The position numbers and the translations under genes are program-made. A stretch of DNA of 22,292 nucleotides from positions 1-22,292 of the IMG/VR virus record IMGVR_UViG_3300006923_001129; one strand, 5' to 3'. Origin of the DNA: a virus. The notes under the pieces were generated by a model. It ran no database searches, had not been told where the DNA came from, and saw nothing but the letters and a program-made list of their open reading frames with translations. Each line of letters opens with the position of its first letter. Positions within the stretch are counted from its first letter, which is position 1. Of this stretch, positions 3,782-22,292 are shown piece after piece.

Positions 3782-5217
3782 TGGCACAAACAGTAAAAGT
3801 CGTTACTCGCGCAACTGCGCCCACCACCACGCCCACCAACCCTGAGTATGGGGCAAGCGACACATCAAGCAACAAGGGTTCCGCGCTGACATCGTCCGAG
3901 ATGGACATGAACCTTCTCAATTTAAAGGATGCAGTAGAAGGCAACTCCACACGCATGGATGAATCCCACAACGAGGATGGCAGCCTCAAGGCGTTAAGCG
4001 TGGACGGGGGCGACTTGTCTGCAAACAGCGTGGACTATAGCAAGATCAAGTCTATCCATTACGCAGCAGACAACGGGGTAGTCAACGCCTTAGCCTTCAC
4101 AATTTCTGGGTTGGCTGCACTTGAGGACGGGATGCTGTTTCTGGTCAAGGTAGCAGTTGCCAACACGGCGGCAGTCACGCTGGAAGTAACCGGCGCATCT
4201 GGTTCGCTGGGGGCCAAGAGCATCTATAAGAACAAGAACACAGCACTAATCTCTGGAGACTTAAAGGCAGGAGAGATGGTGGGCGTATTGTACGATTTAA
4301 GTAACACGGCATTTCAATTGCTAGGCGGTGGAGTTGAGGATGCCGTTGCCCTCTCAGCGTTAGCGTCCCAGACGACAGGCAACCTTATCTCCTTTGCTTC
4401 TGGAGGTGGCGCACCTGTACTTGTTGCAGCAGGATCAGTTGGAGAGGTGCTTACCGCAAACTCAAGTGGGCCTCCATCTTTCCAAGCGTCAGGCATGGTT
4501 CCCTTGATAGAGCTAACATCACCAACGGTTGACACCATAACAGGTGATGGCGCTCAAACAGGTGATTCTAATGGGCAAATATGGGTTCCCCCAAGCGGTG
4601 TGACAAAAGTTCGATTGTGCCTTCAGGGCGCAGGAGGCAGTGGGTATTCAGCTAACGGTAGCGCAGGGGGTGGAGGTGGAGGTGGAGAATACACTGAGTC
4701 AGAGTTGGCCGTGGCTTCAAGTGAGGTGTACCAGATTTACGTTGGGGCTGGTGGGCCGGGGCCAACGGGTACTGATGACCACGCTTCGCCCACAGCAGGG
4801 GAATCTACTACATTTAAACTGGTTACTGGATACGGAAGCAGCGCTGGAGAATTGACCTTAACAGCCAAGGCCAGCGCAGTCGGAGGTACTGCTGGATTGG
4901 CTTCGACGGGTGGAGGAACAGCTTCAGGCGGAACACAAAACCTTAAAACTGTTTCAGGGTCTGCCGGTGGCGCGGAGGGCGTTCCGTATCCAGACGCAAC
5001 AGCACAGGCCAGCGCGGGTAACTATGGTGGACACGGCGGGGTAAGCTACAAAGGAACGCCGGGGTTCGCGGCAATAAGCAACAGATCGGATGAAGGCAAG
5101 CAAGCGAGCGGCCTCGGATATGGGTATGGAGGTTGCGGGGGGAATGGTTCCGAAGGAGATAAGACAAACGCCGAAGGTGGCGGGGGTGGCTGGGTGGCTA
5201 TCTACGATATATCGTGA
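3781..5217 (+). CDS. Tail fibre or adhesin with glycine-rich C-terminal domain
   Basis: A 478-residue virion protein. The N-terminal part has the phage fibre pattern GSALTSSEMDMNLLNLKDAV (residues about 33-52), then a beta domain (NALAFTISGLAALEDGMLFL and following). From about residue 274 it becomes a glycine-rich domain: VTKVRLCLQGAGGSG, then a seven-glycine run in SAGGGGGGGEYTESEL, IYVGAGGPG, several further G-rich loops, and the end GGGGGGWVAIYDIS. Domains of this type occur at tips of phage tail proteins, where stacked polyglycine strands form a receptor-binding tip in some families. Its place between the nozzle and ejection genes, not after the last ejection gene, is unusual for the T7 order. 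It may be a nozzle-attached short fibre. It ends in a GTGA overlap with the oxygenase gene. Confidence 0.7.
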   Translation: MAQTVKVVTRATAPTTTPTNPEYGASDTSSNKGSALTSSEMDMNLLNLKDAVEGNSTRMDESHNEDGSLKALSVDGGDLSANSVDYSKIKSIHYAADNGVVNALAFTISGLAALEDGMLFLVKVAVANTAAVTLEVTGASGSLGAKSIYKNKNTALISGDLKAGEMVGVLYDLSNTAFQLLGGGVEDAVALSALASQTTGNLISFASGGGAPVLVAAGSVGEVLTANSSGPPSFQASGMVPLIELTSPTVDTITGDGAQTGDSNGQIWVPPSGVTKVRLCLQGAGGSGYSANGSAGGGGGGGEYTESELAVASSEVYQIYVGAGGPGPTGTDDHASPTAGESTTFKLVTGYGSSAGELTLTAKASAVGGTAGLASTGGGTASGGTQNLKTVSGSAGGAEGVPYPDATAQASAGNYGGHGGVSYKGTPGFAAISNRSDEGKQASGLGYGYGGCGGNGSEGDKTNAEGGGGGWVAIYDIS

Positions 5218-5819
5218 CACTAATGATTAAAGACGAATTCATCTCCTCTGCCAAAGAGGTTCGCAACAGAGTCATCTCCGAAGGTTTTAGGGAGGAGGTA
5301 GGCCCAGACGGATTCAAGTATTCTGGTATTAACATGGGTGATGACGGTGACCTTAAAGAAAAGATAGGAGAGCTGGGGCAAATGCGAGAGGTGGCTCCCA
5401 AGGTGTCTTTCTTTCGTCAGGATTTAAGAGGAGAGATGCCGCATAGCTATGTTCACAGTGACGAGATATGTGCTGATTGGGCGGGGCTTTTATATCTAAA
5501 CACAGACGAACAAGCCAAGGGAGGGACAGCCCTTTGGACGCACAAGCACATGAGGTGGGACAGGGTTTTGTCGGACGAAGAGATAGATGATCTTGGCATC
5601 ACAAAAGAGGCATACGGCGAGCAGCTAACAGCAGATTGGAAGAAAGAGGAACTCTGGGAAATGTCAGGGTTCGTGAGCATGAAGTTTAACAGGTTTGTAG
5701 TTTATCCAACTAGGTTATTCCACAGCCGTTACCCCCATCAAGGGTTTGGTTCTGGCAGGGAAGATGGAAGGCTAGTGTGGGTTTGCTTTTTTAATGGTAA
5801 GGCTAACGACTCTGCGTGA
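5214..5819 (+). CDS. 2OG-Fe(II) oxygenase-like protein
   Basis: A 201-residue protein with the layout of a 2-oxoglutarate/Fe(II)-dependent dioxygenase (double-stranded beta helix). Candidate metal ligands are H81 and D83 in SYVHSDEICADWAGLLYLNT (the HxD motif) and H170 in YPTRLFHSRYPH. R186 in DGRLVWVCFF is the likely 2-oxoglutarate-binding arginine, with R182 as alternative. GGTALW at 103-108 also fits this fold. It resembles small phage and bacterial oxygenases of the DUF6445 kind more than canonical prolyl hydroxylases. The substrate is unknown. The GTG at 5214 overlaps the previous stop; an ATG three codons on (5223) is an equally plausible start, and neither has a clear Shine-Dalgarno. 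Being inside the structural operon suggests modification of a virion protein or of a surface target, but this is inference. Confidence 0.75.
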   Translation: MTLMIKDEFISSAKEVRNRVISEGFREEVGPDGFKYSGINMGDDGDLKEKIGELGQMREVAPKVSFFRQDLRGEMPHSYVHSDEICADWAGLLYLNTDEQAKGGTALWTHKHMRWDRVLSDEEIDDLGITKEAYGEQLTADWKKEELWEMSGFVSMKFNRFVVYPTRLFHSRYPHQGFGSGREDGRLVWVCFFNGKANDSA

Positions 5820-6231
5820 TCTCCCTGAAATCATCCCCCTCTATCATAAGTTCTTTGAGGAAGGGGATCTAGCGGGGAAGCCAAACCCTGACTCGTTTAG
5901 GGAGGGAGTGGTGAAGCTGATGGATACGGGGGTAGTCCTCTCTCTTGTGGAAGAAGGGGTTGTTAGGGGGACAATGGCGGGTGCGATATATGATGACTTC
6001 ATTACAGGGGATGTCAGTTGCTTTGAAGCGTTCTGGTACGTTGACCCAGCGCATCGAGGCAAGGGTGGACTCAAGTTGTTTAGTCGCTTTGAACAAGAAG
6101 CAAAGTTCAGGGGAGCAAAAAGAATTTGGATGATTCATCTGCTCGCCTTGAATTCAGAGAAAATGGAGAGATACTACAACAAGTCAGGATACGACCTTAA
6201 AGAGAAAGTATATGTAAAGGAATTATTATGA
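5794..6231 (+). CDS. GNAT-family N-acetyltransferase
   Basis: A 145-residue protein matching the GNAT fold from end to end. The N-terminal strand and helix read MVRLTTLRDLPEIIPLYHKF. The central strand FEAFWYVDPAHRGKGGLKLF (77-96) holds the acetyl-CoA pyrophosphate-binding motif RGKGG at 88-92. The C-terminal YYNKSGYDLKEKVYVKEL (127-144) is the usual final strand and helix. The family transfers an acetyl group from acetyl-CoA to an amine of a small molecule or protein. The acceptor cannot be predicted. The gene overlaps the oxygenase gene by 26 nt in another frame and ends in ATGA with the next ejection gene, so the two enzymes are made together and with the virion proteins. The start at 5794 is supported because the first beta strand begins at once. 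Confidence 0.85.
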   Translation: MVRLTTLRDLPEIIPLYHKFFEEGDLAGKPNPDSFREGVVKLMDTGVVLSLVEEGVVRGTMAGAIYDDFITGDVSCFEAFWYVDPAHRGKGGLKLFSRFEQEAKFRGAKRIWMIHLLALNSEKMERYYNKSGYDLKEKVYVKELL

Positions 6232-8473: not shown

Positions 8474-10587
8474 TGGCCATACGAGATACTGGATTAGAAG
8501 TTTATGAGTCGGCAATGCGCCCTGTTCGCCAGAACATACAGGCCATCTTTGCTCATCAGGCGAAACAAAAAGCGGACGCAGAATCCGAGCGTAGACAGTT
8601 AGAGCTTGAACAACGCGCCGAGCGCAGACAGATGGAGCTTGAGAGTCGCGCCGAGGAAAGGGTTATAAGCACCGAGGCCAGAAGGAAAGCTGAAGAGGAT
8701 TCAGATGATATGGCCGCAGCGGTAGCAGCAGCAGGAAGGTATGGCCTACCCACAGAAGGAAGAACCCCAGAGCAGCTCCAGCAGGATGTTGAGAAGGAAG
8801 TGGCCAAGAAAGTACCACGGGATTTCCTAATGGCTAACATGGATGTACTGCCCGGTATCCTTGACCAAGAAAAGATTTCAGCCATACAGAACAATGCACT
8901 CTCCGAAGGGGAACTGGCGCAGATAAAGGCTAATGTAGAAGGGAGAATAACAGCTAGTCGCACTTCTGATGCAGAGATGTGGTTAAGGAAGACTCCCCAG
9001 CGTTTGGCTGATGTAGAAAACGGAAAGAAGCTGCTTACAAAAATAGCCGAAGACCGCGCTGAAATATATGGTGCGCCACTTGCGGATGCAGCAAGAAGAG
9101 CAATTTTAGCAGCCATTCCGCAAGACGGGTCAGTCGGAAATGAGAGTTATATGCTTTACAGAAAACGAGCAGCGCAACGAGCCGTTGAAGACTCAGAAAT
9201 TCAGGATATTTTCTCTAGGCATGATCGTTTAAGAGTGAACTTTGCATCTAACCCAGGTGCGGTCATATTAAACGCTGCACCCATTAATTCAAACGGGGAC
9301 AAACTGGATTCAATGGATGATGAGGACAAGATGCTTTTACTTGAGGCATGGCAACGGGGACAAGCCAGTCAAGCCGCAGCCACAGCAGACGATCAGGAAA
9401 AAGATTACTGGAGAAGAGAGAGCCTCTTAAAGGCAGCGCATGAAGCGCGAAACCCAATGTCACGCCAGTTAGAATTTTTAAAACAACAGGAATTTAAAAT
9501 CTACGACAGGCTTCCTGAGCTTTCTGGCTGGAACTCTCAACAGCAGAAGGTAATGCCACCGCCGGTTAAGGCGACAACGACAGATAGCAGAAGTGATGGG
9601 GCTAGTAGTGGGTTTGGTAATGCCATGCAAAGACTGCAAGCGGCCCCTAGCAACAGCACTCCTGCCGCTGAAGCTGCAACCGCACCGGCAACTGAACTCG
9701 TAGCTTCGGAAGAACCAGTAGCTGCGGAAGAGCCTACTGAAGAAGAACCGGCGGCAGCAACTGTCCCCCCGGCAGCGTCGATTGCGGTTGAAGATTTAGG
9801 GCAGGACATGGGTAGTCCGTTTGGCGGTACAAGTGCAAATCTAATAAGTACGCCAGAATTAGCAGCCCCCAGCTTCTCACCCGCAGCCACAGCGGCTCAC
9901 CCTCTCTTGTCTCCTTACGCAAAGTCATCAACCAACCTAGCCACTTTACTAGATCAGAAAGCTGCTGTTGATGCTGAGATTCAAGCAATGAAAGACCTCA
10001 AATCAGGGAAAACGAAGGTCCCCAGTTTCTTTGGAATACCACTCCACCACAACCAGATTCCCGTTGTTAATTGGAACAGGGCAATAAGTGAACGTGATCG
10101 ATTGCAGCTTCTGATTGATGCCGAAAGGAACGTGCCTGTCCCTGATTTATCTGAAAGAGGAGATGTTGTCCCCCACCAACCGCCAGCTCCGGATGTAACG
10201 CCTTCGCTCCGCACCCCAGAAACGGGGGCAAATGTTGGTTCTAATCTTGGACAGTATGAGCAAGCTGTTCAGGCGCAAATGGGACAAGCACCTCCACCTT
10301 TAGGTCGTTCTATGGCTGGCAATGTTCAGGTTACTGAAGGGGACCCATATGGAGGGTACAGGGAACTGTTAAGTGGCCCTCGAATACATGGCACTCCGTT
10401 CAGTCGATATGTAGAGAATGTTATAAACAGAATGGGGCCATGGGAAAGATATCAGGCAACCAAAGCGTTTAACGAAGCAAGGCCGCCCATAGGGAACGAA
10501 CCTTGGATGCAGGAACACAGAAGGAGTCAACTGCCACCGCCTCAACCTAGAACCCTGCCCACACAGCCGACATGGCAAACCTATTAG
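8473..10587 (+). CDS. Coiled-coil internal virion protein (gp15-position)
   Basis: A 704-residue protein in the position of T7 gp15, an ejection protein. No direct sequence resemblance to gp15 is visible. Residues about 28-78 are a charged coiled coil built partly from a tandem 11-residue unit (ERRQLELEQRA, then ERRQMELESRA). Residues 80-390 are largely helical with LPTEGRTPEQLQQDVEKEV and KVPRDFLMANMDVLPGIL. Residues about 395-450 are a low-complexity Ala/Glu/Pro linker. Residues about 490-560 are again helical. The C-terminal 100 residues contain GPRIHGTPFSRYVENVINRM and end in a proline-rich tail. No signal peptide or membrane helix is seen. The start shares one base with the previous stop (TAATG), and the 3' end overlaps the giant gene by 16 nt. 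Role assigned by context. Confidence 0.6.
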   Translation: MAIRDTGLEVYESAMRPVRQNIQAIFAHQAKQKADAESERRQLELEQRAERRQMELESRAEERVISTEARRKAEEDSDDMAAAVAAAGRYGLPTEGRTPEQLQQDVEKEVAKKVPRDFLMANMDVLPGILDQEKISAIQNNALSEGELAQIKANVEGRITASRTSDAEMWLRKTPQRLADVENGKKLLTKIAEDRAEIYGAPLADAARRAILAAIPQDGSVGNESYMLYRKRAAQRAVEDSEIQDIFSRHDRLRVNFASNPGAVILNAAPINSNGDKLDSMDDEDKMLLLEAWQRGQASQAAATADDQEKDYWRRESLLKAAHEARNPMSRQLEFLKQQEFKIYDRLPELSGWNSQQQKVMPPPVKATTTDSRSDGASSGFGNAMQRLQAAPSNSTPAAEAATAPATELVASEEPVAAEEPTEEEPAAATVPPAASIAVEDLGQDMGSPFGGTSANLISTPELAAPSFSPAATAAHPLLSPYAKSSTNLATLLDQKAAVDAEIQAMKDLKSGKTKVPSFFGIPLHHNQIPVVNWNRAISERDRLQLLIDAERNVPVPDLSERGDVVPHQPPAPDVTPSLRTPETGANVGSNLGQYEQAVQAQMGQAPPPLGRSMAGNVQVTEGDPYGGYRELLSGPRIHGTPFSRYVENVINRMGPWERYQATKAFNEARPPIGNEPWMQEHRRSQLPPPQPRTLPTQPTWQTY
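8587..8652 (+). repeat. Tandem 33-bp repeat within a coiled-coil region
   Basis: Two adjacent 33-bp units (8587-8619 and 8620-8652) agree at 26 of 33 positions and encode ERRQLELEQRA and ERRQMELESRA. The 11-residue period matches one hendecad of a coiled coil. It looks like an in-frame duplication that has since diverged. Confidence 0.7.
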
Positions 10588-13500
10588 TACAGTCTTACAG
10601 GAAAGATAACCCTGACACAAAGCTGTCGGACGACCAAATCTCCATTCGGTTTGCGGAGGAGAACGCAGCGCAGTTACAGGAAATCTTTAAAGCTGACCCG
10701 TCCTACAAGGCGGACATGAATCGCATATGGGGAGTAACAGAAAATCCTGCTTCCCCTGACTCTGGCGGCGATGAACCCTCTAGTTGGGATTGGACAAAGC
10801 AAGCATATAGCCAGTTTATGAAGGGGCTTGCAGAACAGAACATTGTCACAACTGCTCCAGAAACAATCGCAATAGGAACCTCTGCCCTTGGTCATGCGCT
10901 TGACCTCCCCGAAGAAGGGTATTGGGCAGCCCCCCGCGATCCGAAAGAAACAGGCACAGGAAAGTTTGCCGAGTGGATGAAGACAGATGTCCACGAAGCC
11001 CTTACCCCTGAGATCACCGAGAAGAGGCAGGGGCAAATGCGTAACGACTTCGCAAGAAGCACGATTCCTCATGGGTTGGGGTCGGGAGTTGGGTTTATGG
11101 CTGGCGGCGGGGTTATTGGGAAGATACTACAGGGCGGCATCAAGAAACTATCCCAAAAGGTAGGCGAAGAAACGATTGAGTACGCACAGAAGCAAGCCTT
11201 GAAGCGAGGGATGCTGCCAGATGCTGCCCGTAAGTTTGCTGTTGAACAAGGGGAAAAGGCCGCCCAGAAGACATTCCAAAGAGCTGCATTGAGAAGCAAC
11301 TTCAAGGTTACAGCGGGACTTGGTGCTGTTGCTAACGGGCCTCAAGGATACAAGGATGCCATTGCTGAAGGAGCAACACCTGGCGAGGCGTTTACTGCTT
11401 GGATGCTGAACATGGGGGTTGGTACTTCCGAGGTGTTCCCAATGCGAAAGTTTATCGGGAGAATTAGCGGGATAGATAAATACATAGGCAACGGCTTAAA
11501 AGAAGCATTAGTAAGCGCAGGGTGGGAAGCAGCAGAAGAGGCAGCTCAAGAGTTCTTTCAAGGAGCAGCAGGAAACGCAATCGCCAAGTGGATAGTCAAG
11601 TACGATCCAGACAGGGAGGTACTTGCAGATTGGAAGGAGAGCGCAGCGGCGGGAGGAACTGTTGGCGCAATATTAAGTTTGGCTACAAGTGCGGTAGGTG
11701 GGCGAATCCGAAACATAACAGGCAAAGATGAAGGGGAAGGGGCAGCACCGGAATCAGAAGAACTTTTACCTGATACACCCAGCATTGCTGCAAGAGCATA
11801 CGAGGGAGAAAACAAGGAAGCCATTGTTGCCTTAGCAGAAAGAGAGGCGAAGGAAGGATACACCCGCGAGGTCGAGGACGAGTATCTAAAGTTGGGTGTG
11901 GTGAGTGATATCCTAGCCAAAGAACTTTACGACAAAACAAGGAATCAGGCTTTAGCAAGAAACGCCGCCGAGGATGCTGTTGCAGAAACGGAAGCACAGA
12001 TCGACGACATAGCAGCTACTGCGGAGCCTACGGAACAGGAACTGGCACTGCTCGCAGAAGCGGAAGAAGTGAAAGGCAGCCCCCTGACAAACAGCGAGAA
12101 GATTAACATTCTTGCAGGGAATGCGGCAACCACACGCCTTGACGAGGACGAAGATGAGGCGAACAGGAGGAAGGAGTTCTTTAAGGAAGAGGAACAAAGG
12201 GTTGGCCAAAGTGAAGCAGATCAAGAAACGGCCATGCAAGAAGCCTCCGCTGCCGATGGTGATAGGGTTCAACGGGAACTGGATGATGACATAGAAGCAG
12301 CCCAAGAAGGTGAGAGGATTCAACAAGCTCAAAGGGCAGCCACCCAGCAGAAGAACGAAGACTTGGCGGCATGGAGAGCTGCTCGCACCAAGCAGGAACA
12401 ACCAGCAACGGAAGAAGAGGCCGCACCTGAAGCCGAAGAAGATTTACAGCAGCAACTACAGGAAGAGCAGGATGACATAACAGAAGGAACAGAAACCGTT
12501 AATGGACAGGAGATTGCCGGGATTGCGGTTGATGCAGTTGACAACGAAGAGACAGGGATTGCTCATTCAAATGATATAAGGATTGTAAAATCTAGAATCA
12601 AAAAGCTAAAGGAGAGGCTAAAGGGTAAGACCTTAAACGGAAAAGAAATTGGCGAAGACGAAATTGAACAGCTAGTACCGGGGCTGGGTGATGTAGAGTC
12701 AGAAATCGTAGACTATGAAAATTCTGATCTATCCAAGGAGGATGCAAAGGAAAGGCGCGGTGAGATCAAGGAGAAATGGCAATCCTTGTACGGCACAGAG
12801 TACTCCTTGGAAACAGATGAGTCCCTAGAGAAAGCCATAACGCCCAAGGCAAAGGTAAAAGGCGAGCTTCCTGATCGTGCTAAACTTGCAGACAATTACC
12901 CTAAGAAATTAAGCAATTTTACAGATACGGTCTGGCATGAGACAAGTTTGGAAGAGGCGCAAGATTTCATTGGTATGCGTCAAACACAAATGGCTGGTGA
13001 TGTTTACCTTTCTAACAACAAAGACCTTGCTTTAGGGCAAACCGGCCAAGGCGTTCTCCTAGAGTTTGATGCATCTGGAATTAAGGGTCGAGTCAACAGG
13101 AGTAAGCCAAATTGGGGCTTTTCGTGGGATAGTGGTAACGCTGAGTTTGTGGCAAATGAAAACCACAACAAACAAAAAGATTGGGTTAGTAATTTAAAAA
13201 GTATAACCATCAAACCTGATGTAACTTTTAGACCATATCAACAGGACATTCTTAACAGAATAACAAAAGGCTGGGATAATGTTTCCAATAAGGACGGAAG
13301 CCAAACCTTTACAAAGCCCAAGGCAAAGGCCAAAGAAGAAATTGTCCTAGAGCCGGGAACATCCAATGCAACAGAGGCATTCGAGGAAGGGCAGCAAGCG
13401 GCTCGCAAACAAGCGCAAGCCAAGGTGGACAAGGGGAACATAGGTGAAACCTCTCAAGTCATAGAGGGGGTTAGGGAAAGAACAGACGGCCCTATTAATA

Positions 13501-16500
13501 CTGATGATGTCAATTTAGGGGTAGAGTCGGGAGGAGGTTTCTTCACACAAAACGACAACACTTCACAAGGGCGAAGGCTGACCGCAGAGGTAGACGCATA
13601 CAACACAATCTCAAACATTAAGGGAACCACACTAGCTGAACTTAAAAAAGAAGGGATAGTAAGCGGACGCAGCAGTGGAATAGGTTACGCAACAAGCGGG
13701 AAAGGGAAAAATGTTGTCTATCACATAACAAAAGATGCCGTTTATCTTGGTGAAGGAGGGAAGACAGTCGAAGAGGCTATCTCAAATGCAAAGAAAAGGT
13801 CTGCTGAAAGAGTAGGGGTTGTCCTAGCAGAAGGAGGAACTGTTAGCGCAGCGGGATCAGGCGGAAAGGTCACCACTCGCGTTGCCGTACTCCAAAGCCC
13901 AACCGGGGAAGTCGTAGCACTCGGCATACACACGACACAAAACGACAAACCTATGGTCAAGAACCTGAAGGGGACAACCGCAAAGTCCATGCCCCTTTCA
14001 GAGCTGATAACAAAACATGGGTACATCCCTGTCGGCTCAATTAGAACAGTTGCCGGCACAAAAGGATTCGCGGAGGTTTACGAGAGCCGCAAAGATTTCG
14101 ACGAGAAAATAGGCGACAACATTCTGGCACTACAAAAAGCTGAAGCCCAAGTCGGCCCGTTGGCAGAGGGTGTGCAGGAGGCTAAAACGAATGAGAAAGT
14201 TCCGCTTAAAGAAGGCGACCAGCCTGTTCCGCCTATTGTCCGCAACGCACCTCGCCGCGCACCCCGCCCAAGCCAAGAGAAAGTAAACACGGCGTTCTCC
14301 AACATAGTAGACGCTGCTCGAACGGCAGGAGTAGACATTAAGATTGTTAAGGGTGAGTTTGCGAATGTTGAGAAGAAGGCAACCGCTTACATGACGCTCG
14401 AAGACGGGCGGGTAGTGGCAACACTTGCAATGGAGTCTGTCAACAATCCTACACAGAACAACACGCTGGATCTACTCCATGAGATTAACCATGTGGTGTT
14501 CGACCAACTAGACCCTGCCGTCCAAGAGGCACTCGATAACGCAATTGAATCGGTGAGCGACGAAGCCCTTGGCATTGAAGGTTCTGCTTTCATGTTCGAC
14601 AGCTCGTTTACGGATGAAGTGCCGAACGAACTTGTACAGGAAGAAAGACTTGTTGAGGCAGTAGCTAGGAAGATGGAGGCCGCAGGGTTTGATCCTGAAA
14701 GTTCAAGGGGGCTGATTGGAAGTCTCGTCAGGGTGTGGAAGAACATTTCATTTGCCGCAAGGATGGCATGGCAGAAGATGCTGCACGGGCCAACGGCTAT
14801 CAGCCCAACGATGGCGCAGGAATTTTTCACACTACAGGTAGAGGCGTTCCTTACGGGCAACTCCGTCCCAAGGTTTATCAACTATGTGGTTAACCCCAAC
14901 ACCACACTTCTTGAGGACGTAATGCGCTTTACTGGCGACCCCTCCAATGTGTTTATCTCACGCAAAGGTGTGGTCGAAGTGGAGCCTGTTGCACCTGAAA
15001 CCGTGGAGGGTGTGCGCTTCAACATGAAGTATGCCGGTATTACCAGATACAGCCCAGGTGGAACCGAAAGGACAAACGTCCAGCAGTCGAGAAGAAATGC
15101 CGCAACAAACAACGCCGTGCTGCAATCGCTTCGCAATGCCTATGCCGCCTTCACGGCCAGCGGTGCAAACAGAACTCCAGAGGGGGGGCTGATGATTGCA
15201 GAGGATGCGTTCATTGCAAAAATGCTGGGCAAGCGCGGTCCAGTAGAAATTCTGGAGGAGATCGAATCGGAAACAAACCCTGAAGTTGCTGCCACTAGGC
15301 TGGAAGATTTAGACGAGATAGAGGATCGCCCAAGGGCAGCGCTAGATGCTGATAAGTTCCTCACGCGAGTCTATGAGAAGCTCAAGGGCATATCCGACAA
15401 AGCCTACGACAAGCTAAACCGCGACAACAAGAACTCACTGTCAGCTCAAAGGTCAAAGGTTTATATCGCACTTGACGAATTGAGAAGGGAGTACCTTGAC
15501 CTTTCCCGCACAAGCACAAAGCTACTTGAAGGGTATCAGGCAAACCTCGATGCCTTTAATAGCAACAGGAAGGAATCGCGTAACAAAATCAGGCAAGTTC
15601 TGGTCAGCATTGATAAAGATTTAGCCACCAACAAGATTGCTGCTTCGGAGTTTCAAAAACAACCCACACCAGAAGAGCTGGATTTATTCTTCAGGATGGT
15701 CGAAGCGGGAGTGGACTTCACAGAGTCTTGGGCAAACATACAAAAGAAAGTACAGCACCTAGCTACCAAGTACTCCCCAATGGAAGGAACATCCCCGGCT
15801 GCTATCAGGAGCAAAATCATTCTTGCCAAGTTCATGTTGATGGCGGCGGAAAATCCTGTTGCCGTGGAGATGCTTACTCTGCGCGGGGAGAACCCAGCCC
15901 ACAGGAAGAAGTTTGATAGCGTCCTGCGCTTGGCACTCAAGAATGACCGAGATGCCGTGAAGAGAGCTTTCAGGGCATTCAAGGTTGAGTTCAAAGAGGA
16001 GGGCAAGGTCAAGTCGGGGGACTTTGCTCGCTTCAGCAGGAAAATAGAAAAACTCCTGAACAAGATAGAGGAATACAAGGGCAGATACAGCCACATCGAT
16101 CAGGAGATAAATCAAGCACGGCGGGACGTTGCCATGTTCGATGCTACACGGAATGCCTTTGCTGAAGAGAGAGCAACTATAGAAACCTTGTACGACAAGG
16201 AAGACGCAATCAGCGGGTTGCAATGGGAGCCTATACATGAAGCAACCTACATGGTTCCAGCAAGCCCAGTTCAAGGTCTGGAAGATGTTAGGACAAACCC
16301 AGCAACACTAGACCTGTCCAAGAAGGTTGACCTTGCACAGATTGAAAAGCACATCAATGCCATGACCGCATGGTTAAGCAACCAACCCGTTAACAAGCGG
16401 GGCGCAGTATGGAAAACGATGAAGAGGCAGCGTGACAAGCTCATAACTATTCCTGCCGACCAGACACAGCGAGAGGTTAACACTAACTGGATATTAAAAA

Positions 16501-19500
16501 CGCTCGGAGACTACGCCACAAAGCTGGATCTAATCGGGTCACCTCAAGCCAGGAAAATTCAGCAAGCGTTCCGTTCATTAAGCAGAAATGTTAATTCTTA
16601 TGGTGGCGAAAATGCCTTGAGAATAGGACGAGAGTGGGCGTTGGCCCTAGACGATTTGGCGAGGGCATTTAAAAAGAACGGTAGTGTGTTCACTAAAAGA
16701 GATGATATCCTTAGTCTGTATTACTCAAACGCCTTCCATTACTTTGACACCAACCGAGAAGTTCTAAACGAGAACCCCGGCAACAAAGGGCAGCGACTTC
16801 TGCTTAATGGTTTCAAGAATTACTGGAAGGGACAGAAGAAGGAGGACGCAGCATTCATCGATGCAGTATGGCCGCAGTTCGAGAAGCTGATCCTAGCAAC
16901 AAGGAAGGCTTCTAGTCATGTTAATAACATCCGAAAGGAACTAGGGTTAAAGGTAAGGGATGACCACGGAGATTTCTCCTTCTTCCGCGAATCAATAGGC
17001 GACTCCCTGACAACAACCATGCGGAAACCGTCCAAGGAAGTTCCAAGCGTATTCGAGGCACTTGTCAACAGAGGTTGGAACATCAATCAAGCACTTGAGT
17101 CCAAGGCCAGCATTAAAGGTAAATATCTAGAAAATCAAGAGGGGTACATTGCGTATGTTGAAAAGCTGTTTGGCCCAAGTCCACGCGAAGGCGAGGTGTA
17201 CGACAAAACCCACCACCGTGCCGCCTACGCAGTTATGTTGGACTTCGTGGGGCCGTTGGCGAGGAAGTCTGGTGTGGGCCTTTTGTCTAGCCCAACTGAA
17301 AACGGTCTTACTCGACCCGTACCCCAAGCATTGTTGCGAGAGGCGTTCGAGGAGAACCAAGACAACTTTATCGGGATGCTTGAATCTCTGGCAAACAAGC
17401 TGGGGATAGCGGAGGCGGAAGCCAGGGCAGACTTTGTTGCTGAAGCCGTAACTGATTTCCAAGCCGTCTTCAGGCAAATCAAGACTTCTCAAGAAAGGAC
17501 CAACGGAGATTCAATAGGGACAAACACGGCCATGCCTCCCCACATTATGATGGATGCGAGGAAAACAACCAACTGGCCCGAAGAGTGGATTGAATACGCA
17601 ACATTTGGTGAGCGCAACATGCACCAGTATGCCAAGCATTTATCTGTTGAGTCTGCATTTGGTCGTGACATGGGTATGCTCAAAAGAGACATGGCAGAAC
17701 TCAAGCAGCAATTAAAAAACGATGATGATCTAAGGATAAAAATAGACCGAGAGATAAGGGCTGCCGGGGGGAACACGGCTACTGCACACTTTACACGCGC
17801 TTACAAGAAGGCGTTCGAGGAAAAAGCCAAGGCCGCAGGGAAGTCTGCTAAATCCCTGAAGAACGCAAAGACCAAGAAGCAAATAGCAGAAACAATGGAC
17901 ACGCAAATCAATGCTTGGCTGACAGCCGAAAGTGGTACGCCAATGGAGTATTATGCTTGGAATGATTTCATGCGAACCTTGGCTGGGTTTACTGTTCAAG
18001 GCTACGGCACGGCCCTCATCGACACCATCTCAATTGTTGAGCAACCATTCAGGAAACTCGGCCTTGGCAAAACAGCCTTTAGCCATCTCCTGAAGAACGC
18101 CGGTAACTCCGTGGGAATAGGCACAGGCAGCCTGTTTCAGGTGTTCAACAAAACAATAGGCTTTAACGCAGAAAAGATGCAGCTCCTTCGGGAGTTCGGC
18201 CTTGACGATGCAACAGCCAGCTTGGAGGGCAACTTCTTTAGTCGGATCAAGGATAACTATAGGTCTACTCTCTCCGATGAGTTTGTGGGTAATTGGTGGG
18301 AAGGGTGGCGTCCCGGCTCACGGATAGTGGAACATATTTCCCGTGCAGGACGAGCCGTCCTCGGAACCGGGGCTGGAAAATCAGAGGAAGGTAAGGGCGC
18401 TTTCCCTGCGTTGAGGGTTGCCACACCGTTTACACAACTGGCAAAGCAATCGGCAATGGCCAGTACCATGTCCACATGGAGTCAGTTCCAGACCTTGGTT
18501 CTCAAGGCTTCCAAGCTAATAAAGAACAACTCTAAATACGCAGAGATTTTGAGGAACGAGGGAGTCCTGTTCGATGACGCAGTACTTAAAAAGCACGGGC
18601 TATCCCTAAAGAAGCTGATCAAGGAACTAGGGTATGGGCGCAGCTTTGTCGTGCTGGATGACACCCGCGCTTTCCTGCACATGAACGAGTCCCTTCAGCG
18701 TAACGGGTTCACTCTCGAAAGGGTTGCGTTAGACTTTTTAAGAAGAAAAGAGAGGGACAGCAAGGCAGACCCCATTGGGGACAAGAACCTTTACCGAGCA
18801 TTGGCCAATCTAGCTGTATCAGAAACAATGCTTGAGACAGACCTGACCACTAGGCCAAGCGGGATGACCTCTCACAAGTTGGGACAATTCGCCATGCCTC
18901 TCTTGGGTTGGTCTGTGTCAAAGACAAACGATGTGATTAAGGAGTTGAGGGAGCCGGGTGGGCAGACCTCCATGCGAGGGGTTTACTTATCCATGATGAG
19001 CTATATGGCCGTTTGTCCTGTCTGGATGATTTATGCATACCTTCGCGACTTTTTTGACGAGGAAATCGTTGGGAAGAAGTCTGATATTCAACAAGGAAAA
19101 GGGTTGATGCATATGCCGTCTATGGAGCAGATAACTGAAGACCCCATAGATTCCTTCCAGATTGCTTTGGAGCGATTAGATAGAGTCGGGGCTTTCGGTA
19201 TAGCCGGGGAGGCTGCTGTTTACGGCATGGGCCAGGTGGGAGGCAACGTGAGGGACTTCGGGGTGGATTCCAGAGTCTTCGGGATAAACACACTCGGCAA
19301 CTTTCTCGGCACTTGGGTGAAGTGGGGACGGCAAGGCACAGCAACCTATCAGTCAGTAGCCAGACCAATGATCCAATCGCTAGGAGGCAGCGGATTTCTG
19401 CAAACAACCCAAATTATCAACAACCAAATTGGCGAACTACTTGAAGACAAACCCTCTCCCGGCTTGGGGGGGCTGCCGGTTGTTGGAGGAGTACTGTCAC

Positions 19501-20027
19501 AAGACTATTGGGTCAACCATAGGATCGGGGTTCAAAACTACATCAGGGGGGCTGGCAGGACGCTTAACCTCGATGTCAGGAAGCGCAGCAATATGCGAGC
19601 AACCCCAAGCAAGTTGAAGGCTTATGTCGGCCAGATGGTTCTTGCCGCCTACGCTAAAGACCCAATGAAATTTCAGGATGCCAAGCGGTATGCCAAAGAA
19701 GCAGCAAGAGAGGTGGATATTAAGGACGCAGAAAAGAGGATTTTACAGGCGTTCATGGCATATCACCCCCTAAAGCATTCATTCAAAACTGCCCCAACCG
19801 AAAGGGATGTTCAAAAAATTCTAACCACAATTGATGAGTCAAGCGGTGAGGACGCTGGTAAAGCAGTTAGGGATGCCATTCGCTTATACAACAGCGCGAT
19901 AGTACGACTAGGCGGCAACCCTTATGAGGGAAAAAAGGAAAAGGCAGCAAGTTCCACATTCAGAAGGAGGCCGTATATGAGCAGACCCTCACGACCAGAC
20001 TACCGAGCATCCGCCGCATCTATGTAA
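10572..20027 (+). CDS. Giant ejected virion protein with ART-like and zincin-like domains (gp16 position)
   Basis: A 3151-residue protein (about 345 kDa), in the place of T7 gp16, the largest ejection protein. Visible parts, by residue: 1-55 small N-terminal helical domain; 165-193 glycine-rich hydrophobic stretch (HGLGSGVGFMAGGGVIGKIL); 307-380 EAAEEAAQEFFQGAAGNAIA and a second hydrophobic stretch (AAGGTVGAILSLATSAVGG), a pattern I associate with phage 'polyvalent' giant proteins; 395-650 acidic, glutamine-rich coiled coil; 775-900 ADP-ribosyltransferase-like segment (H789, Y812, E858); 993-1185 unrecognised beta-rich domain; 1237-1436 zincin-like domain with HEINH at 1303-1307; 1440-2440 long charged helices; 2467-2520 glycine-rich amphipathic region; 2803-2824 probable transmembrane helix (VYLSMMSYMAVCPVWMIYAY); 2900-3151 basic helical end. 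It was scanned for a lytic transglycosylase motif like that of T7 gp16 and none was found. It starts 16 nt inside the previous gene without a nearby Shine-Dalgarno. No phage lysis or packaging role is indicated. Confidence 0.75.
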   Translation: MANLLVQSYRKDNPDTKLSDDQISIRFAEENAAQLQEIFKADPSYKADMNRIWGVTENPASPDSGGDEPSSWDWTKQAYSQFMKGLAEQNIVTTAPETIAIGTSALGHALDLPEEGYWAAPRDPKETGTGKFAEWMKTDVHEALTPEITEKRQGQMRNDFARSTIPHGLGSGVGFMAGGGVIGKILQGGIKKLSQKVGEETIEYAQKQALKRGMLPDAARKFAVEQGEKAAQKTFQRAALRSNFKVTAGLGAVANGPQGYKDAIAEGATPGEAFTAWMLNMGVGTSEVFPMRKFIGRISGIDKYIGNGLKEALVSAGWEAAEEAAQEFFQGAAGNAIAKWIVKYDPDREVLADWKESAAAGGTVGAILSLATSAVGGRIRNITGKDEGEGAAPESEELLPDTPSIAARAYEGENKEAIVALAEREAKEGYTREVEDEYLKLGVVSDILAKELYDKTRNQALARNAAEDAVAETEAQIDDIAATAEPTEQELALLAEAEEVKGSPLTNSEKINILAGNAATTRLDEDEDEANRRKEFFKEEEQRVGQSEADQETAMQEASAADGDRVQRELDDDIEAAQEGERIQQAQRAATQQKNEDLAAWRAARTKQEQPATEEEAAPEAEEDLQQQLQEEQDDITEGTETVNGQEIAGIAVDAVDNEETGIAHSNDIRIVKSRIKKLKERLKGKTLNGKEIGEDEIEQLVPGLGDVESEIVDYENSDLSKEDAKERRGEIKEKWQSLYGTEYSLETDESLEKAITPKAKVKGELPDRAKLADNYPKKLSNFTDTVWHETSLEEAQDFIGMRQTQMAGDVYLSNNKDLALGQTGQGVLLEFDASGIKGRVNRSKPNWGFSWDSGNAEFVANENHNKQKDWVSNLKSITIKPDVTFRPYQQDILNRITKGWDNVSNKDGSQTFTKPKAKAKEEIVLEPGTSNATEAFEEGQQAARKQAQAKVDKGNIGETSQVIEGVRERTDGPINTDDVNLGVESGGGFFTQNDNTSQGRRLTAEVDAYNTISNIKGTTLAELKKEGIVSGRSSGIGYATSGKGKNVVYHITKDAVYLGEGGKTVEEAISNAKKRSAERVGVVLAEGGTVSAAGSGGKVTTRVAVLQSPTGEVVALGIHTTQNDKPMVKNLKGTTAKSMPLSELITKHGYIPVGSIRTVAGTKGFAEVYESRKDFDEKIGDNILALQKAEAQVGPLAEGVQEAKTNEKVPLKEGDQPVPPIVRNAPRRAPRPSQEKVNTAFSNIVDAARTAGVDIKIVKGEFANVEKKATAYMTLEDGRVVATLAMESVNNPTQNNTLDLLHEINHVVFDQLDPAVQEALDNAIESVSDEALGIEGSAFMFDSSFTDEVPNELVQEERLVEAVARKMEAAGFDPESSRGLIGSLVRVWKNISFAARMAWQKMLHGPTAISPTMAQEFFTLQVEAFLTGNSVPRFINYVVNPNTTLLEDVMRFTGDPSNVFISRKGVVEVEPVAPETVEGVRFNMKYAGITRYSPGGTERTNVQQSRRNAATNNAVLQSLRNAYAAFTASGANRTPEGGLMIAEDAFIAKMLGKRGPVEILEEIESETNPEVAATRLEDLDEIEDRPRAALDADKFLTRVYEKLKGISDKAYDKLNRDNKNSLSAQRSKVYIALDELRREYLDLSRTSTKLLEGYQANLDAFNSNRKESRNKIRQVLVSIDKDLATNKIAASEFQKQPTPEELDLFFRMVEAGVDFTESWANIQKKVQHLATKYSPMEGTSPAAIRSKIILAKFMLMAAENPVAVEMLTLRGENPAHRKKFDSVLRLALKNDRDAVKRAFRAFKVEFKEEGKVKSGDFARFSRKIEKLLNKIEEYKGRYSHIDQEINQARRDVAMFDATRNAFAEERATIETLYDKEDAISGLQWEPIHEATYMVPASPVQGLEDVRTNPATLDLSKKVDLAQIEKHINAMTAWLSNQPVNKRGAVWKTMKRQRDKLITIPADQTQREVNTNWILKTLGDYATKLDLIGSPQARKIQQAFRSLSRNVNSYGGENALRIGREWALALDDLARAFKKNGSVFTKRDDILSLYYSNAFHYFDTNREVLNENPGNKGQRLLLNGFKNYWKGQKKEDAAFIDAVWPQFEKLILATRKASSHVNNIRKELGLKVRDDHGDFSFFRESIGDSLTTTMRKPSKEVPSVFEALVNRGWNINQALESKASIKGKYLENQEGYIAYVEKLFGPSPREGEVYDKTHHRAAYAVMLDFVGPLARKSGVGLLSSPTENGLTRPVPQALLREAFEENQDNFIGMLESLANKLGIAEAEARADFVAEAVTDFQAVFRQIKTSQERTNGDSIGTNTAMPPHIMMDARKTTNWPEEWIEYATFGERNMHQYAKHLSVESAFGRDMGMLKRDMAELKQQLKNDDDLRIKIDREIRAAGGNTATAHFTRAYKKAFEEKAKAAGKSAKSLKNAKTKKQIAETMDTQINAWLTAESGTPMEYYAWNDFMRTLAGFTVQGYGTALIDTISIVEQPFRKLGLGKTAFSHLLKNAGNSVGIGTGSLFQVFNKTIGFNAEKMQLLREFGLDDATASLEGNFFSRIKDNYRSTLSDEFVGNWWEGWRPGSRIVEHISRAGRAVLGTGAGKSEEGKGAFPALRVATPFTQLAKQSAMASTMSTWSQFQTLVLKASKLIKNNSKYAEILRNEGVLFDDAVLKKHGLSLKKLIKELGYGRSFVVLDDTRAFLHMNESLQRNGFTLERVALDFLRRKERDSKADPIGDKNLYRALANLAVSETMLETDLTTRPSGMTSHKLGQFAMPLLGWSVSKTNDVIKELREPGGQTSMRGVYLSMMSYMAVCPVWMIYAYLRDFFDEEIVGKKSDIQQGKGLMHMPSMEQITEDPIDSFQIALERLDRVGAFGIAGEAAVYGMGQVGGNVRDFGVDSRVFGINTLGNFLGTWVKWGRQGTATYQSVARPMIQSLGGSGFLQTTQIINNQIGELLEDKPSPGLGGLPVVGGVLSQDYWVNHRIGVQNYIRGAGRTLNLDVRKRSNMRATPSKLKAYVGQMVLAAYAKDPMKFQDAKRYAKEAAREVDIKDAEKRILQAFMAYHPLKHSFKTAPTERDVQKILTTIDESSGEDAGKAVRDAIRLYNSAIVRLGGNPYEGKKEKAASSTFRRRPYMSRPSRPDYRASAASM
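12900..13280 (+). other. ADP-ribosyltransferase-like segment of the giant protein
   Basis: Residues about 777-903. TVWHETSLEEAQDFI begins with a histidine in the position of the first ART motif (H789). DVYLSNNKDLALGQTGQG has the tyrosine of a second motif (Y812) and the following alanine-containing helix. GNAEFVANEN supplies a candidate catalytic glutamate (E858), followed by WVSNLKSITIKP, a strand with which many ART-like domains in phage giant proteins end. The H-Y-E order matches the diphtheria-toxin/PARP class. This is pattern recognition by eye; the domain could instead be a non-catalytic relative of the fold. Confidence 0.45.
14280..14880 (+). other. Zincin-like metallopeptidase domain of the giant protein
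   Basis: Residues about 1237-1437. A beta-rich start (GVDIKIVKGEF, then AYMTLEDGRVVATLAMES) leads into TLDLLHEINHVVFDQL, a zinc peptidase HExxH motif in a hydrophobic helix, with H1303, E1304 and H1307. Some 55 residues on, EERLVEAVARKME carries E1362 as a candidate third ligand of gluzincin type. A helix with FAARMAWQKMLHG ends the domain. Strand-then-HExxH architecture of this kind is known from small zincin domains in phage polyvalent proteins. The substrate is unknown; peptidoglycan cross-links, virion proteins (self-processing) and host proteins are all possible. Confidence 0.6.
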
Positions 20028-20081: not shown

Positions 20082-20384
20082 ATGATACTGAATACAACAA
20101 CATCACTACCGAGAACGGTCAATGTGGCAAGCACCACGGCGGCAGCAGCGACACTGGCAGCAGCACCAGGCGCAGGGAAAAGCATTATCCTTGTAGACTT
20201 GATAAATGGAGACGGCACCAACATGGCCACCTTAAAGGAAGATAACAGCAGCGGGGCTGTAATAGCACAAGTCCCAGCGGGTGGATCAATCAGCTTGAAT
20301 GCCCCAATTACTGTCACAGCTAACAAGGCAGTTCATGTTGCTACATCCACCAAGTTCACCGCCACTTATATGGTCGAAGGCTAA
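20082..20384 (+). CDS. Small beta-rich virion protein upstream of the tail fibres
   Basis: A 100-residue protein with a good ribosome site (AGGA, 7 nt before ATG 20082). The sequence is mostly short beta strands separated by small residues (SLPRTVNVAS, an alanine-rich stretch at 20-28, KSIILVDLING, AVIAQVPAGGSISL, VHVATSTKFTATYMVEG), as expected of a small jelly-roll or immunoglobulin-like sandwich. Proteins of this size and style are common beside fibre genes in aquatic podoviruses, and a fibre-adaptor or decoration role is likely (inference). I know no established name for it. It is the first gene after the second promoter-like motif and shares one base with the next start (TAATG). Confidence 0.65.
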   Translation: MILNTTTSLPRTVNVASTTAAAATLAAAPGAGKSIILVDLINGDGTNMATLKEDNSSGAVIAQVPAGGSISLNAPITVTANKAVHVATSTKFTATYMVEG

Positions 20385-20905
20385 TGGCATTTACCAAAAA
20401 GTCATCCACCCCGGTCCAAAGGATTGAGGGAGAGTACCCAGAACTTCCAGATGGAGGCGAGCTGGGGCTGGATGAATGGTGGCTGGATACCAGGGGGGTC
20501 TTAAACAGGGTAAGGGACAAAATAGATGACGTTGCCGAGGCACAAACTACAACCCCAGTAGCGCCACTTACGGCGGCAGAGATAAAGGCTTTATACGAAA
20601 CAAACTCTAACACCAACAACTTCACAGACTCCCACCTGAAAAGCCTAGAATCACTATCTAGCTACGGCGATCAGCCCAGGGAAAATATATCTAACACCAG
20701 TAGCACCTCGTCAGACAGGTATCTATTCACGGCAAGCACGAACCAAGGGCAATGGATAATCAACCATCAACTAGGGTTTCTACCTAACGTACAAATCTAC
20801 AACTCTGCATTAGAAGAAATAGAAGCTGACATACAACACACAGACAACTACGAAACAATCGTCAATTTCACAGGAACAACCACAGGCTACGCAGTATTAA
20901 GTTAA
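20384..20905 (+). CDS. Short tail fibre protein
   Basis: A 173-residue protein. The N-terminal 50 residues are polar with LGLDEWWLDTRGVLNRVRDK. Next comes a familiar fibre linker, LTAAEIKALYETNSNTNNFT followed by DSHLKSLESL. The C-terminal domain (about 108-173) reads DRYLFTASTNQGQWIINHQL, then GFLPNVQIYNS, DIQHTDNYETIVNF and TTTGYAVLS. This 'W.I.H.LG..P.V.I....' module often ends phage tail fibre or fibre-linker proteins and probably forms a small trimeric beta domain. The gene starts on the stop of the small beta protein and ends 4 nt before the long fibre, so the three are expressed together. It may be an adaptor joining the long fibre to the tail (inference). Confidence 0.7.
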   Translation: MAFTKKSSTPVQRIEGEYPELPDGGELGLDEWWLDTRGVLNRVRDKIDDVAEAQTTTPVAPLTAAEIKALYETNSNTNNFTDSHLKSLESLSSYGDQPRENISNTSSTSSDRYLFTASTNQGQWIINHQLGFLPNVQIYNSALEEIEADIQHTDNYETIVNFTGTTTGYAVLS

Positions 20906-20909
20906 CATC

Positions 20910-22292
20910 ATGGCAAACAAGAAGGTATTCACCAATTTACAGTTCGAGGGAAGCTCCGAGCTAATCAACCCAAAGCTAAACCCAACGGGAACCGCACCAG
21001 CTTCCAAGGGGCCGGGACAAGCCTACTTTGATACAGGCACAGGCGGCACACTCAATCTACAATTTGCAGCGGCAGGAGCAGCTAACAACGGGGATTGGAG
21101 AGCAGTCCTCACATCTGGTGTCAATTTTTCTACATCTGGAGTTTATCAATCAACATTGGCAGCTAGTGGTGGAAGCTCACCGCCGTTTGTGGTCGCCTCT
21201 GACGATCTGGTAACGAACCTCAACGCTGACAAGCTGGACGGGTATCACATTTCTACAACTGCGGCCGCCTCCAAGATTCCCGTCTACGGTACGGGCGGCG
21301 TACTCAAGGTAGGCACACCCCTAGCCGATGACGATGCGAGTTCAAAATTATATGTCGATACCGCAGTACAAGGGCTGGAACACAAGGAGAGCGTTAGGTT
21401 CACCACTACGGGAAATATCGGCTTAACAGGATTAGGCCAAGGCAATGTAGACGGCACTCATGCTGCTGGTGATCGTATTCTAGTTAAGAATCAAGACGCA
21501 GCCGACGAAAACGGAATCTACATAGCAAAACCTACTGGTGTGGATTGGGTGCTGGCGACTGATGCTGACTTAAATTCAGAGATATTCGTTAACGGGGCGT
21601 TCGACACCGTTGATGATGGGCAGACAGGGCATGATAATACTGACGGAACTATTGACGGGTGGACAAACCTAGTTGGAAACCGCCTGTCTCTTGTGTCCAA
21701 TAAATTGCGGATTACACCTGACGGAACAAACGCAAACTCTGGCGCACAAATTAGTTTCACAACCGAGGTGGGGAAATACTACCGACTCTCCATTGATGTA
21801 GACACAGACCCGCTGAACGGAAATACGTCTTATGCCTTTTTAAAGATAGTAGGTAGCACAACAATCAAAACATCAGCGACGTATTCTGGAGCAACAGCGC
21901 AAACGGGAGAGGTCTTTGTTTTTAGGGCAACTACCACAAGCACAAGTTTGCAGTTAATAAACGGCTCCTCCCCAGCAGACAGAGTAGTTGATTGGGACAA
22001 CATAAGCGTCAAGGAAACTGATTTAGGTGAAGGGGCGTTTGTTTTTATTGAGCAGGGAACCACTCTCTCAAATTCATCATGGGTTCTTGCTGATGCAGAT
22101 ACCCACACTTGGACACAATTCAGCGGGGCTGGACAGATCAGCGTTACGTCTACAGCGGGAACAACTGCCTCATCTTCGGCAGGGCCGTTAATCAAGTCAG
22201 GTGACACGATTGATTTCGGGTATAGTGAAAACTTCTTCAACTTGGATTCTAACCTTAACCTTGGACTGAAGCCGGGAGGGATTACCGAATCC
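20910..22292 (+). CDS. Long tail fibre protein (partial, 3' end outside window)
   Basis: Open from ATG 20910 to the window edge without a stop: 461 residues, incomplete at the C-terminus. The N-terminus MANKKVFTNLQFEGSSELIN with PGQAYFDTGTGG is the usual attachment-end pattern of aquatic podovirus fibres. LDGYH occurs near 108, then ADDDASSKLYVDTAVQGLEH (about 139-158) and GDRILVKNQDAADENGIYI (about 188-206), a well-known fibre domain. That domain runs to LATDADLNSE and resumes only at GAFVFIEQGTTLSNSSWVL (about 375-393). Between them lie some 147 residues of a jelly-roll-like module. The missing C-terminal part probably holds the receptor-binding tip. No clear Shine-Dalgarno precedes the start, so coupling to the previous gene is likely. 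Confidence 0.8.
   Translation, partial: MANKKVFTNLQFEGSSELINPKLNPTGTAPASKGPGQAYFDTGTGGTLNLQFAAAGAANNGDWRAVLTSGVNFSTSGVYQSTLAASGGSSPPFVVASDDLVTNLNADKLDGYHISTTAAASKIPVYGTGGVLKVGTPLADDDASSKLYVDTAVQGLEHKESVRFTTTGNIGLTGLGQGNVDGTHAAGDRILVKNQDAADENGIYIAKPTGVDWVLATDADLNSEIFVNGAFDTVDDGQTGHDNTDGTIDGWTNLVGNRLSLVSNKLRITPDGTNANSGAQISFTTEVGKYYRLSIDVDTDPLNGNTSYAFLKIVGSTTIKTSATYSGATAQTGEVFVFRATTTSTSLQLINGSSPADRVVDWDNISVKETDLGEGAFVFIEQGTTLSNSSWVLADADTHTWTQFSGAGQISVTSTAGTTASSSAGPLIKSGDTIDFGYSENFFNLDSNLNLGLKPGGITES
21582..22022 (+). other. Jelly-roll-like module inserted in the tail fibre domain
   Basis: Residues about 225-371 of the long fibre. The module has NGAFDTVDDG, DGWTNLVGNRLSLVSNKLRI, GAQISFTTEVGKYYRLSIDV, a further run of strands, and the end VVDWDNISVKET. 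The 'gain of GW..., strand-rich middle, final WDNISVKE' layout is typical of carbohydrate-binding-like jelly-roll domains of the CBM4/9 sort. It separates two halves of a fibre domain that are normally contiguous. Confidence 0.55.

Follow-up and report, generated by a model that had tools for sequence, protein, structure and literature searches.

A predicted carbohydrate-binding-type module inserted within a widespread fibre/decoration domain of a small clade of viral fibres

Insertions of carbohydrate-binding modules (CBMs) into a loop of the Dit protein are known, and versions without the insertion exist (PMC9692632, PMC10688798). In lactococcal skunaviruses, the Dit CBM insertions are reported to affect adsorption to polysaccharide-bearing strains (PMC10688798, PMC9692632). 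For tail fibres, domain shuffling is widely reported (PMC10684548).

Here, we describe an insertion in a fibre gene of a virus record of 22,292 bases, the whole of which is called the window below. The fibre ORF is the last ORF of the window, and no stop occurs before the window end. Its canonical domain matches several PHROGs, among them 2647 (head decoration, E 9.3e-20), 27782 and 11518 (tail fibre, 2.4e-13), and one half of the domain lies on each side of the insert. The features are:

20384..20905, + strand: upstream ORF, directly before the fibre gene
20910..22292, + strand: fibre ORF, 461 aa, open at the window end, with PHROG matches to head-decoration and tail-fibre families
21300..21581, + strand: N-terminal part of the canonical domain, residues 131-224; PHROGs 2647, 27782 and 11518; half-profile 93.2 bits
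21582..22028, + strand: inserted CBM-like module, residues 225-373; 74.1 bits to the module profile; predicted fold; 4 of 98 scored sources interrupted here
22029..22139, + strand: C-terminal part of the canonical domain, residues 374-410, EGAFVF...SGAGQ; half-profile 27.3 bits

Elsewhere in the window, an ORF of 3151 residues (10572-20027) has no PHROG match at 1e-3 in its C-terminal 1651 residues. Among the structural genes, a DUF6445 ORF (PHROG minor coat protein) is followed by a GNAT acetyltransferase ORF (5214-6231). A Gly_rich_2 glycine-rich protein (3781-5217) matches a PHROG named tail fibre assembly (E 2.5e-6).

The fibre ORF reads LATDADLNSE up to the break, IFVNGAF...DWDNISVKETDLG through the insert and EGAFVFIEQGTTLS where the domain resumes, i.e. 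the canonical domain stops after residue 224 (LNSE) and restarts at residue 374 (EGAFVF). A preliminary description of the window had placed the insertion at 21582-22022 (residues 225-371). The insertion holds, but its bounds are wider: by comparison with relatives it starts at residue 225 or 226 and ends at 373, giving 148-149 residues.

To compare sites, separate profiles of the two halves were used on 99 sources: 14 phage records, 80 IMG/VR loci, the loci L149, L150, L151 and L157, and the window. G001, a further relative, was left out, and L021 has no scorable C half. The halves are 1-12 residues apart in 94 of the 98 scored sources; the 14 phage records are a subset of 218 matching the N-flank, and the 80 loci are the best of at least 576, hence near relatives and no random sample. 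Four sources are interrupted, with 149 residues between the halves in the window, 132 in L149, 118 in L150 and 138 in L151. This agrees with the initial reading that the fibre domain breaks after LATDADLNSE and that an inserted stretch lies between the two parts. All 36 relatives read by eye at the site run from a DAD..E motif, with variants, straight into the strand before GT. The half-profiles replace counts of the domain as a single stretch, in which the window, L149 and L150 align on into the insert; such counts are weaker because rows with an insert may be falsely aligned across the site.

G001 is a fifth carrier, in which the end of the insert is cut by a run of Ns and a frame break occurs earlier in the gene. 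The insert is thus found at the same site on five separate contigs (window, G001, L149, L150, L151), so that it is not the product of one bad assembly. In L157, from the same fibre family, the site is empty and reads GEILDGDFIFVESGT. Alignment with fibres without the insert, proposed in the preliminary description as a check, bears out an insertion through the 94 continuous sources and the empty site of L157. In the near family, the site can be read in six members, of which five are occupied and one, L157, is empty; the sequence of L153 stops short of the site. The module is therefore a separate domain inside the canonical one, as had been supposed, but it is not peculiar to one phage.

Over the N-terminal 160 residues, the window fibre is 46-50% identical to those of L149, L150 and L151. 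The identity to G001 (L001/L026) is 66% across 151 aligned N-terminal residues, and to L157 it is 39% over the N-terminus. The ORF of L150 is long, extending over 1159 aa up to the end of the locus, and includes a Laminin_G_3 domain. Immediately upstream of the fibre gene, G001, L149, L150, L151 and L157 have ORF ends that by eye resemble that of 20384..20905. In a tree of the flanks only (75 rows, quick method, no outgroup root, G001 left out and L157 a long branch), the four complete carriers group together in a single clade with an SH-aLRT of 99.9. Among the rows compared, the insertion is restricted to this clade, and the grouping is compatible with a single insertion event. Judged by these sequences, the fibre of the carrier clade has the insert as a standing feature, and the insert is absent from the 93 other continuous sources. 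With the insert as query, tblastn gave no match at E<=1 in 50,697 phage records; a viral scan using the N-flank alone gave no match, and a scan of genome contigs with the family N-terminus no relative.

Modules with the pattern ELVTNGDF...FTTVVGKTY...DNISVKE occur in other phage ORFs and match the insert, with 34-38% identity in a first set of four. A module profile built without the rows of the window and G001 gives 74.1 bits for the window insert, 58.7 for L149, 57.1 for G001 and 31.3 for L151. Seven sequences were shuffled 200 times each, and the best of these 1400 decoys scores 7.8 bits, so the match of the window insert is not due to chance. Neither the L150 insert nor L157 matches the profile. 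In 44 module-bearing loci (several of which share a contig), the canonical domain is present in the ORF of the module only in L033, which is G001 itself.

Against Pfam, the window insert has no CBM match at E<=1, PF02018 (CBM_4_9) included, and its matches to HphA_C (0.0056) and Plus-3 (0.1) are below cut-off. PF02018 is matched by four of 19 modules, at best with 1.6e-4, the module of the window not being among them. NCBIfam choice_anch_C is matched by 13 of the 19, and by the window insert with an E of 1.7e-4 and 21.9 bits (cut-off 120). A profile of the 19 modules has the CBM4 of endoglucanase C (1gu3, E 0.0024) as its best match among PDB sequences. This sequence evidence hints weakly at CBM4, in agreement with the predicted fold.

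The same module family is also seen at other sites. Two segments that are adjacent in L136 (199/204) and L138 (190/195) are separated by 358 residues in L040 (430 to 789), and a module lies between them at 454-580, likely a second case of loop insertion. In L041:2150-3115 and L143, the module seemingly splits another structural domain (DKILVDKEIM ... KVARGENN); for L041 as a further loop insertion, no phage record matched, which left no intact relative to compare. After PSGTLHVS, the shaft of L026 (reverse strand, G001), L149 and L150 contains a second stretch that is jelly-roll-like. It scores 11.7 bits to the module profile in G001, and is recognised by eye only in L149 and L150.

The insert and the intact homologue L072 were folded separately, in place of a joint fold of the window domain with its insert, since the C halves of the relatives slid into the insert in the alignment and only some MAFFT modes place them rightly. 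The insert model (AlphaFold2, 19 sequences) is an all-beta sandwich with a pLDDT of 80.7 and a pTM of 0.78, with a weak stretch at 13-20. The best Foldseek match is a hyaluronan-binding module (4d0q, 8.1e-8), and CBM4-2 (2y64) is found at 9.0e-7. VIA gives Z-scores of 13.8 for a porphyran CBM (8xmz), 13.6 for CBM4-2 (2y64) and 12.9 for CBM16 (2zew). The top matches of Foldseek and VIA-align are mostly carbohydrate-binding modules, with CBMs 4, 16, 22, 29 and 61 listed; phage tailspikes, HpiC1-type cyclases and crystal-protein domains are in the same list, the latter two up to Z 13.2. The predicted model thus has the beta jelly-roll or sandwich fold of a CBM_4_9-like module, as the earlier suggestion of a carbohydrate-binding jelly-roll had it.

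The model of L072 has a pLDDT of 88.4, and the junction, E95/L96, falls within a coil (91-99) that links a short helix to a strand, consistent with the proposed insertion in a loop. Foldseek finds no significant fold match of this model in the PDB. The sequence profile of the intact host domain matches 9nx3 (E 1.8e-17) and 9efk (E 1.4e-14), and both alignments pass through the site uninterrupted. With such sequence homologues and no fold match, the overall shape of the lone-chain model is doubtful. The model supports the loop position locally; for the assembled fibre it is putative.

In the ten pairs among the five carriers, the inserts are 24-52% identical, the N-flanks 54-73% and the C-flanks 41-71%, where the insert pieces hold a few flank residues and the G001 pieces are short. 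The insert is less conserved than the N-flank in all ten pairs, and than the C-flank in nine; the exception is L149-G001 (insert 52, C-flank 41). Such different sequences at one site are compatible with a fast-changing contact part. In the insert tree, the inserts of the window and G001 are neither joined nor separated (p-AU 0.38), and exchange and fast evolution are indistinguishable.

We think it probable that, in the ancestor of a small fibre clade, a loop of this widespread fibre/decoration domain received an in-frame insertion of a CBM-like adhesin module, and that the module binds polysaccharide in the manner of evolved Dit proteins. The fibre protein would then be an adhesin. The loop would project the module away from the fibre, where it could bind a host or environmental polysaccharide and so add avidity or specificity to adsorption. 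Changing ligands might drive the divergence of the inserts, via exchange or fast evolution. Such an action would parallel the CBM insertions of 'evolved' Dit proteins.

The module might instead be a ligand-free structural spacer or stabiliser, diverging under weak constraint. Non-lectins occur in the fold list, and in most pairs no other piece has diverged as far as the insert, both of which would suit a spacer; we nevertheless regard it as unlikely, as members of the module family are also found in further ORFs on viral contigs and carbohydrate-binding modules make up most of the top fold matches. A capsid-decoration fibre whose module anchors virions to environmental polysaccharide, with no role in host selection, seems a little less likely still. 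It would explain why the best PHROG is the head-decoration family 2647 (E 9.3e-20) and why the profile finds 9nx3, named a capsid decoration protein, but the tail-fibre PHROG 11518 is matched too, and the relative L150 has a long ORF with a Laminin_G_3 domain.

That homologues could reveal the region as an integral part of the fibre domain was foreseen in the preliminary description. It is a standing part in the carrier clade, with five of six readable near-family members occupied at the same site, and an integral part lost in other lineages would leave this pattern. However, 94 of the 98 scored sources are without the insert and the tree, which has no outgroup root, unites the four complete carriers in one clade; this makes such a loss very improbable. 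More tentatively, and as a doubtful extension, the loop could be a standing insertion port. The site would always be filled in one clade, with a jelly-roll cargo that is swapped or rewritten, and an unchanging scaffold would in this way bear interchangeable lectins. A possible second site lies in the shaft (G001, L149, L150, by eye), and an unrelated virion protein (L040, compared with L136 and L138) seems to carry a member of the same module family in one of its loops.

With the ancestral insertion of a polysaccharide-binding module, a widespread fibre/decoration domain would join the known case of the Dit proteins in hosting CBM-like modules in a loop. One empty site and five different inserts form a natural series for asking if a loop-held module sets adsorption specificity. 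In a search of a library of PMC papers, no paper on the insertion was found by titles and abstract starts, which cannot prove absence.

Among known systems, domains of the phage tailspikes CBA120 TSP4 and K2-2 TSP match the predicted fold of the insert with Z 12.5 and 12.3. The capsid decoration protein 9nx3 and orf22 9efk are sequence homologues of the intact host domain; in both, the site is without an insert. CBM families 4, 16, 22 and 61 match the predicted fold of the insert at Z 12.4-13.7 over 122-142 residues, but the identity is 9-17% and the window insert misses Pfam CBM_4_9. In the evolved Dit, as described in PMC9692632 and PMC10688798, a CBM sits in a loop (galectin domain) of an adhesion-device protein, insertion-free versions exist and adsorption is altered. 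The arrangement here is of the same type, with a CBM-like module in a loop and homologues without the module, whereas the host domain is not Dit (belt plus galectin domain) but of the PHROG 2647/11518 type, homologous to 9nx3 and 9efk. By this analogy, the logic of the evolved Dit is most likely what accounts for the insert.
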